64,000 bases of DNA from Nostoc sp. S4. Its GTDB lineage: Bacteria; Cyanobacteriota; Cyanobacteriia; Cyanobacteriales; Nostocaceae. Below are positions 10,853-18,382 of this stretch, in pieces. The position numbers were made by a program, and so were the translations under genes. The stretch covers positions 1 to 64,000 of the forward strand of contig JAQYWR010000002.1 in NCBI GenBank assembly GCA_029379225.1. The letters run 5' to 3'. The first letter of the stretch is position 1. Every line of letters begins with the position of its first letter. The notes beneath the pieces were generated by a model that was not told where the DNA came from, searched no databases, and saw nothing but the letters and a program-made list of their open reading frames with translations.

Positions 10853-12040
10853 CTATTTTGGGAGCAAAGCAACTGGTTGGGCATCAATTCGAGTTCGGAA
10901 CAGACTGTAAGGTTTCTGACGCAGGTCTTTTCCTTGGTGATATCTGGCTTGACGATGCAGCTGATTAGCTGTGAAGTAAAGATAGCCGTCTTTTGCCACT
11001 GAAAGAGTATCCGGCCAAAGAACACGCGGGTCATGAATCAGAGGTTCAATCATCCCCTGCTGATTCCGACGAAAAATGGCGTTTTGCTCGTAGTTCGTCA
11101 GATATATTCGGTTATTCGCATCTGATTCCAGCCCATCAGAACCTCCGCCCTTATCACCCTTATCTTCGACTGTCACTGCAACCTGTGCATCAGTCATCTG
11201 TTCATTGGAAAGTGCATCAACGCTAACGCTGTAGAGTTTGCGACTAGCAAGTGGACAATAAAATAGACGAGAACCGTCTGCACTAATTGCAATGCCATCC
11301 GAACCTAACTTAATATAACTAGGGGGTTGATTAGGTGGTCGGCTCATCAACGGTTGACCTTCAACGCTAGGTAAAAAATTCGGCTCCGCCTTCGTAGAAG
11401 GATGGTCATTTAACCGTCGCCAACTTCTACCACTGGCTAAATCAACGACAATAATCCCATTTGCACCCTTATCAGATGAGTCAGTAATAAACGCCATACC
11501 TGCTTGACCCCGGCGCAAGTCAAAGCGGATATCATTCAAATACGTCGTTGGTAAAGCAACTTCTTGAGGAAAAAGAATAGTCTTAAAGATGCGGTTTTGC
11601 TTGAGATCGACACCAACCAGTTTTGGTCCTCCGTAAGAAGTAGGTGCGAATTCGATGCTTCCAGTATCCAGTATCCAAAGGCGATCTTGGGGATCGACAA
11701 CAACACTTTGAACAGAAATTAAGGATTTCGACTGTTCGCTACTGTTAGGTCGATTGATTTGGGCATTCGGGTAAGCTACAGCACGACCATTCTTGATCTC
11801 TGCAACTGTAAAATCTACCTTGTCGCCCCAACGTGGAAAGTTAATAAAGATGCGACCGCCCGCTGATACAGTCACCCCTGTTGGCATTGGACCGTTGAAA
11901 GCAACAACCTGCTCAATATTGCCAATCGTCTTTCCTTGCGGTAGAGCGCCACTTTTTGCCGCAAGCGAGGGCATATTATAAACTAGTGCGATCGCCAAGC
12001 CAACTAACAATCCAAGAAGTACTTTAAGCCTTTTCAACAA
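10853..12040 (-). CDS. Secreted major royal jelly/yellow-family protein
   Basis: 395 residues. Seen: N-terminal signal peptide (KRLKVLLGLLVGLAIALVYN... with cleavage near SLAA), then a beta-propeller-type sequence with repeated VDPQDRLWILDTG, YLNDIRFDLRRGQAGMAFIT and SDGIAISADGSRLFYCPL. Known: these are hallmarks of the MRJP/yellow family (SMP-30-like six-bladed propellers), found in some bacteria as exported proteins of unclear function, perhaps lactonase-like or ligand binding. GTG or alternative starts do not change the core. No partner genes are adjacent. Confidence 0.85.
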   Translation of the reverse strand: MLKRLKVLLGLLVGLAIALVYNMPSLAAKSGALPQGKTIGNIEQVVAFNGPMPTGVTVSAGGRIFINFPRWGDKVDFTVAEIKNGRAVAYPNAQINRPNSSEQSKSLISVQSVVVDPQDRLWILDTGSIEFAPTSYGGPKLVGVDLKQNRIFKTILFPQEVALPTTYLNDIRFDLRRGQAGMAFITDSSDKGANGIIVVDLASGRSWRRLNDHPSTKAEPNFLPSVEGQPLMSRPPNQPPSYIKLGSDGIAISADGSRLFYCPLASRKLYSVSVDALSNEQMTDAQVAVTVEDKGDKGGGSDGLESDANNRIYLTNYEQNAIFRRNQQGMIEPLIHDPRVLWPDTLSVAKDGYLYFTANQLHRQARYHQGKDLRQKPYSLFRTRIDAQPVALLPK

Positions 12041-12220: not shown

Positions 12221-12577
12221 TTATTTTAATAAATAAATTTTTTGCAATGGATGCTTAAGAATATCAATTTTTTGCTCTGGATACTTGATAATATCGCACA
12301 ACTCCTGCAATTGATTTATCGCTTCTGCGCCCTCTAACTTCATTAATTCGCGGTCATCCCAGATTTCCATCCAAGTAATACCGTAATCAGACACCAAAAA
12401 CCGAATCAGGTGCTTTTCTCCTAGACTTACCATAAATGAAGCACTCTTGATTTGGTCGCCGCATGTATAACAAGACGTCAGATATCCACGCTGCTCAAGT
12501 ACAGTTGATAAAGCTTGCAAGCTCATTACCAATTCTTGGACGACTTCCTGATATTGTTGGGCTAATCTAAGAAACAC
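12221..12577 (-). CDS. Hypothetical protein
   Basis: 118 residues, GTG start with AGGAGG seven bases upstream, which supports it as a real gene. The N-terminal half is helical (VVQELVMSLQALSTVLEQRG), followed by a CYTCGD pair of cysteines and a mixed segment HLIRFLVSDYGITWMEIWDD. The end KIDILKHPLQKIYLLK is hydrophobic-basic. No family recognised; not membrane-bound. It is separated from gntK by about 150 bases and is unlikely to belong to the sugar-acid cluster. Confidence 0.55.
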   Translation of the reverse strand: MFLRLAQQYQEVVQELVMSLQALSTVLEQRGYLTSCYTCGDQIKSASFMVSLGEKHLIRFLVSDYGITWMEIWDDRELMKLEGAEAINQLQELCDIIKYPEQKIDILKHPLQKIYLLK

Positions 12578-12724: not shown

Positions 12725-13225
12725 CTAAATTCCTAAAGCTGTTCTGATATTTTGGACAATTACCTGAGGTGTCTCGATAACATCTATATATAGAGTGTCT
12801 AATGGTTCTTCTAGAGTAATAAACTGGCTATTAAGGAGTTTTTCGCTCATATAGTGATTATGACGCTCTTGCAACCGCTTTTGAATTAACTCATAAGACC
12901 CTTTGAGATAAACCAGCTTAATGCGATCGCTATCCACAACCAGAAATTGCCGATAGCTTTCTTTGAGAGCCGAACACGCCAGCACCACATTTTTATTTTC
13001 TTGTAGCCAGTTTTTAATAGCTGTTTGCAAATCTTCTAACCAAGGTATTCTGTCTGCTTCACTCAGAGCAATACCGCGCCCCATTTTCTCAATATTCTCT
13101 AGCGAGTGAAAAGCATCGGCGTCGCTAAATTGCCAGTCTAAAGAATCTGCTAGCAGTTTTCCTATGGTAGTTTTGCCAGCTCCAGAAACACCCATAATGA
13201 TAATAATCATTGATTTACATATCAT
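12725..13225 (-). CDS. gntK: Gluconokinase
   Basis: 166 residues, the usual size. Seen: P-loop MGVSGAGKTTIGKLLA near the N-terminus, FSDADAFHSLENIEKM, GIALSEADRIPWLEDL, VLACSALKESYR and the YMSEKLLNSQFITLEEP motif, all typical of GntK. Known: phosphorylates D-gluconate to 6-phosphogluconate with ATP in the cytoplasm. An internal ATG at 13208-13210 (MIIIIMG) is an equally good start. It diverges from the LacI gene, and the operator-like palindrome lies between them. In context it would capture gluconate made by the uronate/LarA genes on the other side. Confidence 0.9.
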   Translation of the reverse strand: MICKSMIIIIMGVSGAGKTTIGKLLADSLDWQFSDADAFHSLENIEKMGRGIALSEADRIPWLEDLQTAIKNWLQENKNVVLACSALKESYRQFLVVDSDRIKLVYLKGSYELIQKRLQERHNHYMSEKLLNSQFITLEEPLDTLYIDVIETPQVIVQNIRTALGI

Positions 13226-13552
13226 AGTTTGGCAAAAAAAGTTAATTTCTATCAGTCTAGCTAATTGCTTATTATTAAAATTTCTCCGCTGCCTAAATTA
13301 TAAATCTTTTACCCAAGATGATATTGAGTACGATCGCCACCATCGGCAACTGCCTCAGGAATAATAAAGTAAGTCAACTGGAATATTTATTTTGAAAACA
13401 ACAAAGTTTTAGTTAACTTTACTTTTTGTTACACTTGGCTTTTGACCTAAGTTTTGTGCTTTGTGAATGGAATAAATACATTGACAGATGACTCAACTTT
13501 GCTAATAATAAAAATTGTAATGCAAACGTGTGCATTATTTATAGTTAAGATT
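13226..13552. promoter_or_regulatory. Divergent promoter region of gntK and the LacI-led operon
   Basis: 327 AT-rich bases between gntK (minus) and the LacI start at 13553. It holds the 20-bp palindrome at 13518-13537 and no gene. An in-frame extension of the LacI gene back to 13454 is open but unlike the family and crosses the operator, so I treat it as non-coding. Confidence 0.6.
13518..13537. promoter_or_regulatory. LacI-type operator palindrome
   Basis: TAATGCAAACGTGTGCATTA: two 10-base halves that match as inverted repeats at 9 of 10 positions, with a central CG, as in LacI/PurR operators. It ends 15 bases before the regulator's ATG, where a bound dimer would block transcription or translation initiation. 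Confidence 0.7.
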
Positions 13553-14602
13553 ATGAAGAAACGAAAAGTTTCAATCGAAGATATTGCTCGCCGAGCAGGT
13601 GTTTCCCATTCCACAGTTTCACGTGCTTTGCGAGATAACTCTCTAATTAGCCCGAAGGTGCGAGAGGAAATTAAGAAAATAGCGCGGGAGATGAACTATG
13701 TGCCGAACGCGATCGCTCAAAGCTTGCTTTCTTCACGCACTAATACCATTGGGGTAGTAGTGACATCAATCGCAGATCCTTTTTACGCTGAGGTGGTAGA
13801 GGGAATTGAACAGGTAGCCAGAACGGCTGGTTTGAGTGTTTTGTTAACTGCTTCACACCGAGATTTCCAGCAGGAAATAGCAGCTATTGATAATTTTCAT
13901 CGTCGCAGAGTGGACGGGATATTAGTTACCGACTCGCGAATTGATAAGAATAATACCGACCAAGTAGGGCAAATTGCCGTGCCAACAGTTTTGATTAATA
14001 GTCAGACACAAGAGCAACCTGAAACATTTCACACAGTGACAGTGGACGACTTTTTAGGTGGTCGATTGGCGGTAGAGCATCTGATCGGCTTGGGACATAG
14101 GGCTATTGGTTATTTGGGTGTGGGCGATCGCAGTAACTCAAACCAGCTGCGCTTAGAAGGATATCAGATGGCTCTTAAGGAAGCTAATTTATCACAAAAC
14201 AGTGATTGGGTGGCAATTAGTGCTGAAGATAATATCAGAATCAGCGATGTTGATACCGGAAAAAAGCTGCTATCTCAACTATTTACAGCTGGCGTAACAG
14301 GCATCTTTTGTTACAACGATATGGTAGCAGTTGGCGCTCTCTTAGCTTGCCAGGAACGAGGTATTTCAATACCACAAGATTTAAGTTTGGTTGGATTTGA
14401 CGGTATTGCTCTTTCATCTTACGTTACGCCGCCACTGACAACAGTTTGCCAACCAATGTTGGAAATTGGTCGCTCAGCTATGCAAATATTGCTCGATTTA
14501 CTAGAGGAAAAAAGCGTGGAAAACCTCGTTCTATCTCCTTTTCTAATAAAGCGAGGTAGTAGTGCTGTATTAAAGCAAGGGGGTGGGGGATGGGGGAGAT
14601 AG
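13553..14602 (+). CDS. LacI-family transcriptional regulator of the sugar-acid cluster
   Basis: 349 residues from ATG 13553. Seen: HTH at residues 6-27 (VSIEDIARRAGVSHSTVSRALR), hinge helix YVPNAIAQSLLSSRT, and a periplasmic-binding-protein-like effector domain with IGVVVTSIADPFYAEVVEGI and GIFCYNDMVAVGAL. The start is chosen because it aligns with LacI N-termini and sits just after the operator palindrome. Known: such regulators usually repress and are relieved by a pathway sugar or sugar acid. I infer autoregulation and control of the downstream uronate genes, perhaps also gntK. The C-terminal GGGGWGR tail comes from a G-rich repeat. Confidence 0.9.
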   Translation: MKKRKVSIEDIARRAGVSHSTVSRALRDNSLISPKVREEIKKIAREMNYVPNAIAQSLLSSRTNTIGVVVTSIADPFYAEVVEGIEQVARTAGLSVLLTASHRDFQQEIAAIDNFHRRRVDGILVTDSRIDKNNTDQVGQIAVPTVLINSQTQEQPETFHTVTVDDFLGGRLAVEHLIGLGHRAIGYLGVGDRSNSNQLRLEGYQMALKEANLSQNSDWVAISAEDNIRISDVDTGKKLLSQLFTAGVTGIFCYNDMVAVGALLACQERGISIPQDLSLVGFDGIALSSYVTPPLTTVCQPMLEIGRSAMQILLDLLEEKSVENLVLSPFLIKRGSSAVLKQGGGGWGR

Positions 14603-14649
14603 GAAGAAATAACCTAACGACCAATGATCAATGACTTTGGACAAAAACT

Positions 14650-16071
14650 ATGTTAACTAAAAAATGGAGTTTATCTAGCGATCGCTGCTTTGCTCCAGAA
14701 CCAATTCAAAGACAACTAGCGCGTCAATTTTTTGAGAGCGTATACACTCTACCCTTGGTCTGTCCCCACGGACATGTAGACCCAGCTTTATTAGCCGACC
14801 CAGGAGCGCGTTTTGGTTCGCCAACTGAATTATTGATTATTCCCGACCACTACATTTTCCGGATGCTCTATAGTCGGGGCGTATCTTTGTCAGCTTTAGG
14901 CATACCTAGCCGTGATGGTTCGCCAGTCGAAACTGACCACCGCAAAATCTGGCAGCTTTTCGCCAACCATTTTTATTTATTCCAAGGTACTCCGTCTGGG
15001 TTGTGGCTGAAAGACGAACTCACTAACGTCTTTGGGGTGGATGAGCCTTTAAATTCTCGCAATGCTGGGCATATCTATGATTACCTGGAAAAGCTGTTAT
15101 TGTTACCTGAGTTTTCACCTCGGGCTTTATTCAAAAAGTTTAATATTGAAGTGCTTTGTACTACCGATGCGGCCAGCGATACTCTTGAGTACCATCAATC
15201 CCTACACCAAAAACGTTTTACTCAGATCAAACCTACCTTTCGGCCAGATGCAGTAGTCAACTTGGATACTCCTGGTTGGCGGGAGAATCTAACCAAGCTA
15301 GAAACCACTGTTGGGCGAGAAATTAGTACTTACGCTACTTTTGTGCAAACTCTAGAAGAACGTCGAGCTTTTTTTAAACAAATAGGCGCGACAGCTACCG
15401 ACCATAGTGCAGCCACACCTTATACCAAGCGCCTTACTGACCAGGAAGCAGAAGCAATCTTTGCTAAAGCATTAACCAACAAACTAAATCCAGGCGATGC
15501 AGAGCGTTTCACTGGCCATATGTTCATGGAAATGGCTCGAATGAGTGTAGAAGATGGTTTGGTGATGCAAATGCATTGCGGTATTATGCGTAACCATAAT
15601 TCGGCTGTCTTTGAGCGGTTTGGGTCTGATAAAGGTGCTGATATTCCTTTGAAAATAGAGTGGACGGAAAATTTACAGCCGTTGTTGTCAGAGTACGGTA
15701 ATCAAAAGGACTTTCACTTAATTCTGTTTGGATTGGATGAAAGCACTTATAGCCGCGAACTAGCTCCCTTAGCCGGTCATTATCCCGCAGTCCTGCTGGG
15801 GCCGCCTTGGTGGTTTCACGACAGCATGAATGGTATGGAGCGATACTTCAATCAGGTGATGGAAACAGCCGGACTTTATAACACCGCCGGTTTTAACGAC
15901 GATACCCGCGCTTTCGTTTCCATTCCTGCGCGCCATACAGTCTGGCGACGCGTAGCTTGTAACTGGTTAGCAGGATTAGTAACACGCGGGTTAATTGAGG
16001 AAGAAGAAGGCTATGAAATGGCTTTTGCTTTAGTTTATGACCTCGCTAAGCTTGCTTACAAATTAGACTAA
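14650..16071 (+). CDS. uxaC: Uronate isomerase (glucuronate isomerase)
   Basis: 473 residues, normal for UxaC. Seen: metal-site motif CPHGHVDPALLADP near residue 38, VLCTTDAASDTLEYH, MHCGIMRNHN, LILFGLDESTYSRELAPL and LGPPWWFHDSMNGMERY, ending SIPARHTVWRRVACNWLAGL. Known: amidohydrolase-superfamily enzyme that converts D-glucuronate to D-fructuronate (or D-galacturonate to D-tagaturonate), EC 5.3.1.12. It lies 47 bases after the LacI gene, probably cotranscribed. Unusual for a photoautotroph; it suggests use of plant, algal or sheath uronates. Confidence 0.95.
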   Translation: MLTKKWSLSSDRCFAPEPIQRQLARQFFESVYTLPLVCPHGHVDPALLADPGARFGSPTELLIIPDHYIFRMLYSRGVSLSALGIPSRDGSPVETDHRKIWQLFANHFYLFQGTPSGLWLKDELTNVFGVDEPLNSRNAGHIYDYLEKLLLLPEFSPRALFKKFNIEVLCTTDAASDTLEYHQSLHQKRFTQIKPTFRPDAVVNLDTPGWRENLTKLETTVGREISTYATFVQTLEERRAFFKQIGATATDHSAATPYTKRLTDQEAEAIFAKALTNKLNPGDAERFTGHMFMEMARMSVEDGLVMQMHCGIMRNHNSAVFERFGSDKGADIPLKIEWTENLQPLLSEYGNQKDFHLILFGLDESTYSRELAPLAGHYPAVLLGPPWWFHDSMNGMERYFNQVMETAGLYNTAGFNDDTRAFVSIPARHTVWRRVACNWLAGLVTRGLIEEEEGYEMAFALVYDLAKLAYKLD

Positions 16072-16096
16072 TAAATTTTGAATTTGAGATTTGAGA

Positions 16097-16135
16097 TTTG
16101 GGAATAAAAATTGTTGCCTAGATCCCAAACTTTTT
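16097..16135 (+). terminator. Possible weak terminator after uxaC
   Basis: TTTGGGA (16097-16103) pairs with TCCCAAA (16123-16129), followed by C and TTTTT. The 19-base loop makes it weak; it may attenuate rather than separate the next two genes. Confidence 0.4.
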
Positions 16136-16262
16136 AAAGAAGTTAGGGAGCAAAATCTAGCGATTTAATAAACGTTATGGCAAAAGCGATGGCGCACCGC
16201 CAATGAAATCAAAATGATGAATTAACGAAGTAACGCACCCTACCTAAATAGAGGAATTATCA

Positions 16263-17117
16263 ATGCCAGATTTATTGAATAAACCAGATTTAATTTTAAA
16301 TCAACTTTTTAGCTTGAAAGACCAGGTAGCAGTAATCACAGGCGGTTCTGGTGTGCTAGGTGGAGCGATGGCGCGGGGTTTGGCACTTGCGGGAGCGCGA
16401 GTAGTCGTTATTGGTCGCAATCAAGCACGAGCGGATGCGGTTGTGGCTGATATTAGCACCAACAGTGGCGAAAGTATGGCTGTATTGGCAGATGTTGGCG
16501 ATCGCTTGCAATTAGAAATAGCCAAACACACTATTTTAAAGCATTGGGGTCAGATAGATATCTTAGTAAACGCGGCTGGTGGTAATATGCCAGCGGCCAC
16601 AATTACTGCTGATGCTAGTTTTTTTGATATGCCTCACACAGCATTCGAGCAAGTAGTTAGCCTCAACTTGGTGGGTACTTTACTACCTAGTCAGGTTTTT
16701 GGTCAAGCAATGGTCGAAAGAAATCAACCCCAAGGTTGTATTGTGAATATTTCTTCGATGTCTGCTATCCGTGCAATCAGTCGAGTGGTTGGTTACTCAG
16801 CAGCCAAAGCAGCGATAGATAACTTTACTCGTTGGCTAGCTGTAGAATTGGCTCAAAAATATGGAGCTAGCTTGCGAGTTAATGCGATCGCCCCGGGTTT
16901 TTTTATTGGCGAACAAAATCGAGATTTACTTTTAAATGCAGATGGAAGTTTAAGCGATCGCGGACAAAGAATTATTAACCAAACCCCAGCTGGACGTTTT
17001 GGAGAACCGCACGAATTACTCAGTACCTTGATTTGGCTATGTAGTTCTGGTTCTAGTTTCGTCAACGGGGTAGTTGTGCCGGTAGACGGTGGGTTTAGCA
17101 TCTACAGCGGAGTTTAG
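16263..17117 (+). CDS. SDR oxidoreductase, probable D-mannonate oxidoreductase (fructuronate reductase)
   Basis: 284 residues. Seen: NAD(P)-binding TGGSGVLGG (residues 26-34), NAAGG (103-107), catalytic Ser in NISSMSA and Y178-x3-K182 (GYSAAKAA), all of the classical short-chain dehydrogenase fold; C-terminal VNGVVVPVDGG. Known: the short-chain type of UxuB (as in Bacillus) reduces D-fructuronate to D-mannonate, and its N-terminus resembles this one (FSLKDQVAVITGGSGVLGGAMA). The position between uxaC and a LarA-type gene supports that role. The stop is 2 bases from the next start, so it is tightly coupled to the LarA-type gene. Confidence 0.8.
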   Translation: MPDLLNKPDLILNQLFSLKDQVAVITGGSGVLGGAMARGLALAGARVVVIGRNQARADAVVADISTNSGESMAVLADVGDRLQLEIAKHTILKHWGQIDILVNAAGGNMPAATITADASFFDMPHTAFEQVVSLNLVGTLLPSQVFGQAMVERNQPQGCIVNISSMSAIRAISRVVGYSAAKAAIDNFTRWLAVELAQKYGASLRVNAIAPGFFIGEQNRDLLLNADGSLSDRGQRIINQTPAGRFGEPHELLSTLIWLCSSGSSFVNGVVVPVDGGFSIYSGV

Positions 17118-17119
17118 AA

Positions 17120-18382
17120 ATGTATTTATTAGCCGTAACTAATAATGGCAGACTTGCAGATGAGGAAATTTCCCAACTAGTTCATCAAGCTTTGGCAGAT
17201 TCTAGGTTTGATGGACAGCGCATCTTAGTATTAATTCCAGATGGAACTCGCACTGCTCCCATCCCGCAAATGTTTCGATTGCTTCACAAGGAGTTAAATA
17301 ACAGGGTTGCTGCACTGGATTTTTTGATTGCTCTGGGTACACATAATCCCATGAGTGAGAAACAAATCAATCGTTTAGTTGGGGTAACACCAGAGGAGCG
17401 AGAGACAACTTTTAAAGGAGTTCACATTTTTAATCACCTTTGGCATCTGCCAGAAACTTTTATTTCTTGTGGAGTAATTTCGGCTACAGAAATTGCAGAA
17501 ATTAGCGGGGGAATGCTGCATCAAGAAGTTGACGTGCGTGTGAATAAATTGGTAACAGAATATGATTTAATAATTATTTGTGGCCCAGTCTTTCCTCACG
17601 AAGTTGTTGGTTTTTCTGGGGGAAATAAATATTTTTTCCCCGGGATTAGCGGTGAAGAAGTAATTAATTTATCACACTGGTTAGGTGCTTTAATCACCTG
17701 TTATGAAATTATTGGTACACTGGGAATCACACCAGTTCGACGCTTAATCGACCGAGCCGCTAGTTTAATTCCTACCCCGAAACTTTGCTTGGCAATGGTG
17801 GTTGCACCGAAAACGAATCAGTTAGCTGGACTTTATATAGATAAACCAGAGTTAGCCTGGGAAGCTGCGGCAAAATTATCAGCTAGACTGCATATTAAAT
17901 ATGTAGATCGGCCTTTTAACCAAGTGCTTTCAGTCATGCCCGAAATGTATGATGACATTTGGACAGCTGCTAAAGGAATGTACAAATTAGAGCCTGTAGT
18001 CGCGGATGGAGGAGAAGTAATTATCTATGCACCTCATATTACTGAATTTAGTTATACACACGGCGAGATATTAGCCGAAATTGGTTATCATGTGCGGGAT
18101 TATTTTCTGAAACAATGGGATAAATTCCAAGCATATCCTGCGGGAGTGTTAGCTCATAGTACTCACTTGAAAGGGATGGGCACTTTCGATCCTATAGAAG
18201 GGGAAAAAGCCCGGATTCGTGTGACTTTAGCTACTGGCATTTCTCCAGAACGTTGTGCTGCTCATAACTTGAACTATCGCGAGCCGGCTACGATTCAACT
18301 AACAGAATGGTCTTATCGGGAGCATGAAGGTATTTTGCTTGTACCCAAGGCTGGCGAGATACTTTACCGGATTAATAAGTAA
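17120..18382 (+). CDS. LarA-family nickel-dependent racemase/epimerase, predicted mannonate/gluconate 2-epimerase
   Basis: 420 residues, LarA-like length. Seen: PDGTRTAP (D41, R44), GTHNP (H75), PHEVVGFSGGNK (H160, K170), SHW (H186) and AAKG (K285). The spacings D-x2-R, H-x9-K and K-x15-H equal those of the lactate racemase D72/R75, H174/K184/H200, so cofactor residues look intact. Known: LarA uses a nickel pincer nucleotide on a lysine to shuttle hydride at C2 of 2-hydroxy acids; family members with D-gluconate 2-epimerase activity have been reported. Inferred: interconverts D-mannonate and D-gluconate here. Needs LarB/C/E cofactor enzymes, which are not in the window. Confidence 0.8.
   Translation: MYLLAVTNNGRLADEEISQLVHQALADSRFDGQRILVLIPDGTRTAPIPQMFRLLHKELNNRVAALDFLIALGTHNPMSEKQINRLVGVTPEERETTFKGVHIFNHLWHLPETFISCGVISATEIAEISGGMLHQEVDVRVNKLVTEYDLIIICGPVFPHEVVGFSGGNKYFFPGISGEEVINLSHWLGALITCYEIIGTLGITPVRRLIDRAASLIPTPKLCLAMVVAPKTNQLAGLYIDKPELAWEAAAKLSARLHIKYVDRPFNQVLSVMPEMYDDIWTAAKGMYKLEPVVADGGEVIIYAPHITEFSYTHGEILAEIGYHVRDYFLKQWDKFQAYPAGVLAHSTHLKGMGTFDPIEGEKARIRVTLATGISPERCAAHNLNYREPATIQLTEWSYREHEGILLVPKAGEILYRINK

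Follow-up and report, generated by a model that had tools for sequence, protein, structure and literature searches.

What does a LarA-type gene do beside genes of hexuronate breakdown in Nostoc, and which reaction would its product catalyze there? The question is raised by a 64,000-nucleotide stretch of Nostoc sp. S4 DNA (positions 1 to 64,000 of contig JAQYWR010000002.1, assembly GCA_029379225.1; hereafter the window), for which a reading made from the letters alone (the sequence-only reading) had proposed that a UxaC isomerase, a UxuB-type short-chain dehydrogenase/reductase (SDR), a LarA-type C2 epimerase and a gluconokinase carry D-glucuronate to 6-phosphogluconate without a mannonate dehydratase. 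We find this route to be the best reading of the evidence, and by gene content and order the cluster is the Nostoc hrm locus, hrmK diverging from hrmR-hrmI-hrmU-hrmA, with the partner gene hrmE on another contig. We consider it likely that HrmA, the product of the LarA-like gene, is a GntE-type epimerase in an inositol/hexuronate route to 6-phosphogluconate and that hormogonium repression depends on flux through HrmA.

The layout on which the proposal was built, a divergent gntK followed by lacI, uxaC, an SDR gene and larA, proved correct in all five positions, and together with the neighboring DUF1815 gene and the predicted control elements it reads as follows:

12221 to 12577, minus strand: DUF1815 protein (Pfam PF08844, 166.9 bits), the gene of the hrmE/hrmK interval in 17 complete relative regions.
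12725 to 13225, minus strand: gntK, that is hrmK, a GntK/IdnK-type gluconokinase (TIGR01313, 153.5 bits against a cut-off of 113.75).
13481 to 13508, plus strand: sigma-70-like hrmR promoter as read from the sequence, TTGACA at 13481-13486 and TAATAA at 13503-13508, a layout shared by relatives.
13521 to 13534, no strand assigned: predicted HrmR-type operator TGCAAACGTGTGCA, a mismatch-free fit to TGCAMACGTKTGCA.
13553 to 14602, plus strand: lacI, that is hrmR, a LacI-family repressor (Pfam LacI and Peripla_BP_3).
14650 to 16071, plus strand: uxaC, that is hrmI, a glucuronate isomerase (NF002794, 498.5 bits against a cut-off of 387).
16263 to 17117, plus strand: the SDR gene, that is hrmU, a UxuB-type D-mannonate oxidoreductase (fructuronate reductase; NF006132, 383.3 bits against a cut-off of 281).
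17120 to 18382, plus strand: hrmA, a LarA-superfamily protein (Pfam Lar_N PF09861, 81.5 bits against 23.3), read as a candidate nickel-pincer D-mannonate/D-gluconate 2-epimerase.

Two bases separate the stop of the SDR gene from the start of the LarA-like gene. Translation of lacI probably starts at ATG 13553 and not at TTG 13454 of the open reading frame list, because of the relatives' conserved N-terminus and the promoter and operator at 13481-13534. As had been said of the locus, no uxuA, kdgK or eda gene is present among the nine genes family-scanned between 8096 and 18382.

Since the locus matches the published hrm locus (Fig. 6 legend of PMC5987646), we assign the LarA-like gene of the window to hrmA. 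The hrmUA locus was first described in 1997, as cited in PMC5987646, and the established role of the hrm locus is to hold back hormogonia, the motile stage, when Nostoc lives with plants. The gene content given in that legend for Nostoc punctiforme and the operon named hrmRIUA in a 2021 review (PMC8074062) are the same as here; the difference is that the window holds every hrm gene but hrmE, which in this genome lies on a separate contig (G000:C108:68972-69700) and encodes a myo-inositol oxygenase (MIOX). Behind hrmE stand sugar-type ATP-binding cassette (ABC) transporter genes, a major facilitator superfamily (MFS) sugar porter and an oxidoreductase, and the transporter genes resemble the sugar-transport genes named in excerpts of PMC5987646. 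Whereas hrmA is of unknown function in the excerpted text of that 2018 genome paper and without database homologue in that of the review, the gene encodes here a LarA-superfamily protein. Both the review and PMC10575698 link the hrm locus, in the passages concerned, to hexuronate metabolism, and no paper among the matches listed from open-licence PubMed Central ties hrmA or hormogonia to LarA, a racemase, nickel or an epimerase. Thus the metabolic part of the sequence-only reading stands, whereas the identity of the cluster as the hormogonium-regulating hrm locus and its distant inositol oxygenase member had gone unrecognised. The name hrmK was later reused for a histidine kinase, since renamed hrmX.

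A nearly private predicted operator, TGCAMACGTKTGCA, is common to the operon of the window and the distant hrmE. Only three sites in the 7.66 Mb genome fit it exactly, one at the hrmR promoter and two ahead of hrmE, as compared to about 0.09 mismatch-free sites expected from base composition. With one mismatch allowed, the limit of the search, the genome has four places and the reversed control pattern one; the fourth (C67:4149, one mismatch) falls within the coding frame of a WD40-repeat protein, which we read as chance, and a wider regulon under the operator was rejected at up to one mismatch. In relatives, a TTGACA/TATAAT-type promoter upstream of hrmR is followed by the palindrome TGCACACGTGTGCA or a close variant. 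Over 23 sources in all, a mismatch-free TGCAMACGTKTGCA was found at 20 of 20 hrmR promoters in the regions that have such a promoter; all 20 hrmE loci examined also have it ahead of the gene, and many carry it twice. This agrees with the reported HrmR targets in N. punctiforme, which are hrmR and hrmE (excerpts of PMC5987646).

The same neighborhood recurs in other genomes. The complete set of seven genes, MIOX-DUF1815-GntK followed by LacI-UxaC-SDR-LarA, was found in that order in 17 of the 22 regions fetched, with gntK divergent from lacI in every one of the 17; the other five comprise a contig end, a decayed copy, the distant MIOX locus of Nostoc sp. S4 itself and two regions with MIOX and GntK only. 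Scanning genome contigs with peptide patterns of the window's HrmA gave 404 related stretches, of which the best 80 were kept (30 cyanobacterial, 50 other). LacI-UxaC-SDR-LarA stands in 28 of the 30 named cyanobacterial loci and the whole order in 19, Nostoc punctiforme NIES-2108 among them, while ten have fewer genes in view; Dendronalium carries all the hrm genes with GntK, DUF1815 and MIOX downstream of LarA. The nearest named HrmA among the best 80 of the 404 stretches belongs to Nostoc sp. PA-18-2419 (97%).

HrmA is a LarA-superfamily member by its Lar_N domain, fold and residues. The residues named in the sequence-only reading (D41, R44, H75, H160, K170 and H186) are correct and invariant in an alignment of 39 chosen sequences, the window's HrmA and 38 of the 80 kept loci, and so are the catalytic lysine K285, the loop pair E161-V162 and W281. 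Among the residues that excerpts of PMC7583248 single out as important, the predicted catalytic set is D41, H75, H160 and K285 and the cofactor set R44, K170 and H186. The closest solved structure by sequence is 4nar, GntE2 of Thermotoga maritima (phmmer 5.5e-64). A structure model of HrmA, with a predicted local distance difference test (pLDDT) of 89.2 and a predicted template modelling score (pTM) of 0.88, superimposes on 4nar with a Foldseek template modelling (TM) score of 0.90 (E 6.6e-40), as compared to 0.77 or less for the other listed LarA-type structures; the listed lactate racemases match the model at E 3e-18 or better. Excerpts of PMC7583248 describe the loop E-V/S and a tryptophan in helix 11 as marks of groups 18-20, and HrmA shares both with the characterized GntEs (LarAH19, LarAH15 and LarAH20, the T. 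maritima 4NAR), as well as the fold and the catalytic and cofactor residues. The small helix-14 residue that faces the side chain in GntEs has its counterpart in G342, present in 38 of 39 HrmA-clade sequences and matched by eye to N348 of GntE2 in a sequence alignment with 4nar. HrmA differs from the GntEs in belonging to a clade shared with Chloroflexota and others.

A LarA-type enzyme would need its nickel-pincer cofactor, and larB, larC and larE are all present in the genome above their cut-offs, which rules out that the cofactor genes are missing; the three were found in six of six same-genus genomes tested, that of Nostoc sp. S4 included. In three of the six (G278, G068 and G167) larB, larC and larE occur but the HrmA query, a single protein that may miss distant LarA homologues, found nothing, and the cofactor may serve something else in these strains. 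This is a recognized puzzle in cyanobacteria: according to excerpts of PMC11796402, LarB, LarE and LarC are found widely across the group, yet most of its members have no LarA-like gene. The nickel-pincer genes of Synechocystis are reported there to function in E. coli.

The canonical pathway, in which UxuA leads to 2-keto-3-deoxygluconate (KDG), is not apparent in Nostoc. No UxuA was found in any of 53 same-genus genomes, including that of Nostoc sp. S4, where none can thus stand under the operator either, whereas the control matches in 5 of 14. No ManD-type dehydratase is present among the three enolase-superfamily matches of the genome, which are a DgcA/dipeptide-epimerase-like protein, MenC and enolase; the DgcA-like protein scores 222.5 bits, under its own cut-off of 400, and 48.3 bits with the ManD model against a cut-off of 550. 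A hidden mannonate dehydratase was rejected on these two results.

We propose that a hexuronate-like ligand would release HrmR and switch the route on, upon which HrmE would convert myo-inositol to D-glucuronate, HrmI D-glucuronate to D-fructuronate and HrmU D-fructuronate to D-mannonate. HrmA would then invert C2 of D-mannonate on the nickel-pincer cofactor to form D-gluconate, and HrmK would phosphorylate D-gluconate to 6-phosphogluconate, which would feed the oxidative pentose phosphate pathway. Both the forward flux and its part in symbiosis are inferred. In principle the isomerase, the reductase and the epimerase can each work in either direction, and were the route to run from gluconate through mannonate to fructuronate/glucuronate, it would yield a hexuronate that acts as an inhibitor, holding hrm expression on and preventing hormogonia. 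The oxygenase and kinase steps are irreversible, though, and both point forward. As the same operator precedes the inositol oxygenase gene, whose product makes glucuronate, and the kinase of the locus drains gluconate, we regard such a reversal as very unlikely, even though it is in line with the published hypothesis of the synthesis of a galacturonate-like metabolite inhibitor (excerpts of PMC5987646).

As a reaction, the step from mannonate to gluconate on a LarA-type enzyme is not new: Thermotoga GntE had been put forward for it and catalyzes it in vitro (excerpts of PMC7583248), and further GntEs are given in excerpts of PMC11770544. In T. maritima, too, mannonate would become gluconate and probably enter the pentose phosphate pathway (PMC7583248, in part), and yet T. 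maritima has UxuA, being among the matches of the UxuA search control, whereas Nostoc has none and carries UxaC and MIOX upstream. The galacturonate pathway of Lactobacillus suebicus likewise reaches 6-phosphogluconate from mannonate without a dehydratase; there, phosphorylation precedes a 6-phosphomannonate 2-epimerase, and in the published excerpts both this epimerase and the mannonate kinase are described as activities, their genes not being identified. That HrmA works on 6-phosphomannonate in this manner appears highly improbable to us, as GntE2, its closest characterized enzyme, uses free D-mannonate (excerpts of PMC7583248) and the GntK/IdnK kinases are annotated as gluconokinases.

The neighborhood does not look like a product of chance. 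Of the 53 same-genus genomes 35 have the LarA-like protein, which is full length in 32, divided between two contigs in one, broken into two overlapping pieces in another and a fragment in the last; UxaC was found in 35 (one of them a fragment with a stop) and MIOX in 39 (two fragments, one shortened; the control matched 0 of 14). HrmA and UxaC occur together in 34 genomes and each alone in one; HrmA and MIOX occur together in 34, with HrmA only in one genome that is 72% complete and MIOX only in five. The distance between HrmA and MIOX is about 10 kb or less in 28 of the 34 genomes that carry both.

Outside cyanobacteria, the neighbors of HrmA homologues bear on the substrate. The 50 loci are by title mainly Chloroflexota and Acidobacteriota, many of them on short contigs, so that all counts are lower bounds; neighbor families were named from one representative each, and weak cases were counted (FGGY in L138 at 26% identity, UxaC in L168 at 27%, IolO-type in L159 at 32%). 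The UxuB-type SDR was found in at least 36 loci, 6-phosphogluconate dehydrogenase (Gnd) in at least 22, UxaE in at least 19, HAD-like proteins in at least 15, IolO-type in at least 11, FGGY gluconokinase-like in at least 8, UxaC in at least 7, IolN-type in at least 6, PfkB in at least 4 and LacI in at least 3. An E. coli-type UxuA was found in 0 of the 50 loci, in a search with no positive control among them, and MIOX likewise in 0 of 50. UxaC acts on galacturonate too, and HrmA might epimerise some other 2-hydroxy acid of uronate metabolism, such as an aldarate or altronate, and not mannonate. HrmR is reported to answer a galacturonate-like ligand (excerpts of PMC5987646), and the group 19 enzyme GntE1 stands in uronate contexts and has a high Michaelis constant (KM), for which its native substrate may differ (excerpts of PMC7583248). 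Nevertheless the commonest partner is the D-mannonate oxidoreductase-type SDR, and 6-phosphogluconate dehydrogenase and the gluconokinase-like FGGY protein need gluconate, the C2 epimer of mannonate, which makes another substrate unlikely.

Several points weigh against HrmA as a mannonate epimerase of this route. Its identity to GntE2 is about 33%, and with the NCBIfam hexonate-epimerase model NF052594 (group 18) it scores 191.9 bits, below the cut-off of 500, and therefore forms a separate branch outside the curated subfamily. The name hrmA is given to the window gene by synteny and a published legend. A window-type GntK was found in 0 of the 50 non-cyanobacterial loci, and the representative of the FGGY kinases scores 238.1 bits against a FGGY gluconokinase cut-off of 648.55. 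The dehydratase negatives cover UxuA and ManD, as IlvD/Edd, kdgK and eda were not searched genome-wide. No NCBIfam model matched the MIOX protein of Nostoc sp. S4, which passes Pfam PF05153 (control 0 of 14), and hrmE is distant from hrmA in 6 of the 34 genomes carrying both (Nostoc sp. S4 itself, G125, G376, G405, G410 and G421). The Fisher tests of co-occurrence ignore shared descent; 20 of the compared regions were chosen from the LarA and MIOX match lists, 17 of these, the complete ones, for closeness of both genes, and in one complete region (L086) the LarA-like protein is in two pieces. Finally, published work, as excerpted from PMC5987646, prefers the synthesis of a hormogonium inhibitor over catabolism.

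Beyond the proposed route itself, we tentatively suggest, and with more doubt than confidence, that with HrmA cyanobacteria gain their first known LarA-type user of the nickel-pincer cofactor, that the signal by which the host plant represses hormogonia would be metabolic in nature, with plant inositol or hexuronate drained via HrmA to 6-phosphogluconate, and that flux past HrmA, beyond HrmR derepression, would move filaments from infective hormogonia to nitrogen-fixing growth in a nickel-dependent manner. A specific reaction for hrmA makes the old question of plant control over Nostoc assayable, HrmA provides cyanobacteria with a candidate user of the nickel-pincer cofactor, and one operator ties inositol oxygenase to the symbiosis switch.

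Two Alteromonad plasmids add strong cases to the context evidence for the route. In Saccharobesus litoralis a single frame (L174:5500-7269) encodes a gluconokinase domain (184.8 bits against a cut-off of 113.75) fused with a hexonate-epimerase domain (618.9 bits against 500); larB, gnd and a gene for tagaturonate epimerase lie nearby, and this fusion lends context support to NCBIfam group 18, so far only a "putative" hexonate epimerase. In Catenovulum adriaticum uxaC, a TRAP transporter, gluconokinase, a LarA homologue and larC stand together, with larB one gene further. IolO and IolN neighbors are seen, for example, in L126, L131, L135, L142, L151 and L164, and because they adjoin HrmA homologues, inositol breakdown may commonly supply mannonate to the HrmA clade. 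A family of about 300 residues lies near the HrmA homologue in 15 of the 50 loci (L127:3649-4560 and 14 others); no Pfam or NCBIfam model recognizes its representative at the thresholds applied, and its sequence suggests that the family is HAD-like.

The ten cyanobacterial HrmAs in the tree group together as a single clade (100/99), surrounded for the most part by sequences of Chloroflexota, which suggests a single horizontal acquisition. A draw of 386 genomes across the cyanobacterial phylum gave a full-length LarA in two, the same two with UxaC, and a LarA fragment in one; two more weak partial matches at 27-29% identity were not counted as HrmA. We therefore rejected HrmA as a common cyanobacterial gene, full-length LarA and UxaC each being present in 2 of 386, which is at odds with excerpts of PMC10999742 that place hrmUA among the genes common throughout Nostocales. 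No plasmid-borne near-identical copies were found. Near the cluster, the minus-strand gene at 10853-12040 encodes a Major royal jelly protein domain, and its product was not detected in the 22 compared regions at the cut-offs used. The locus also decays: G125 (L025) keeps remnants of UxaC, the SDR and HrmA, G423 a fragment of UxaC and G431 (L086) HrmA in two overlapping pieces, G416 and G429 carry hrmE fragments, and only hrmE and hrmK are in view in G167 (L087) and G432 (L088).

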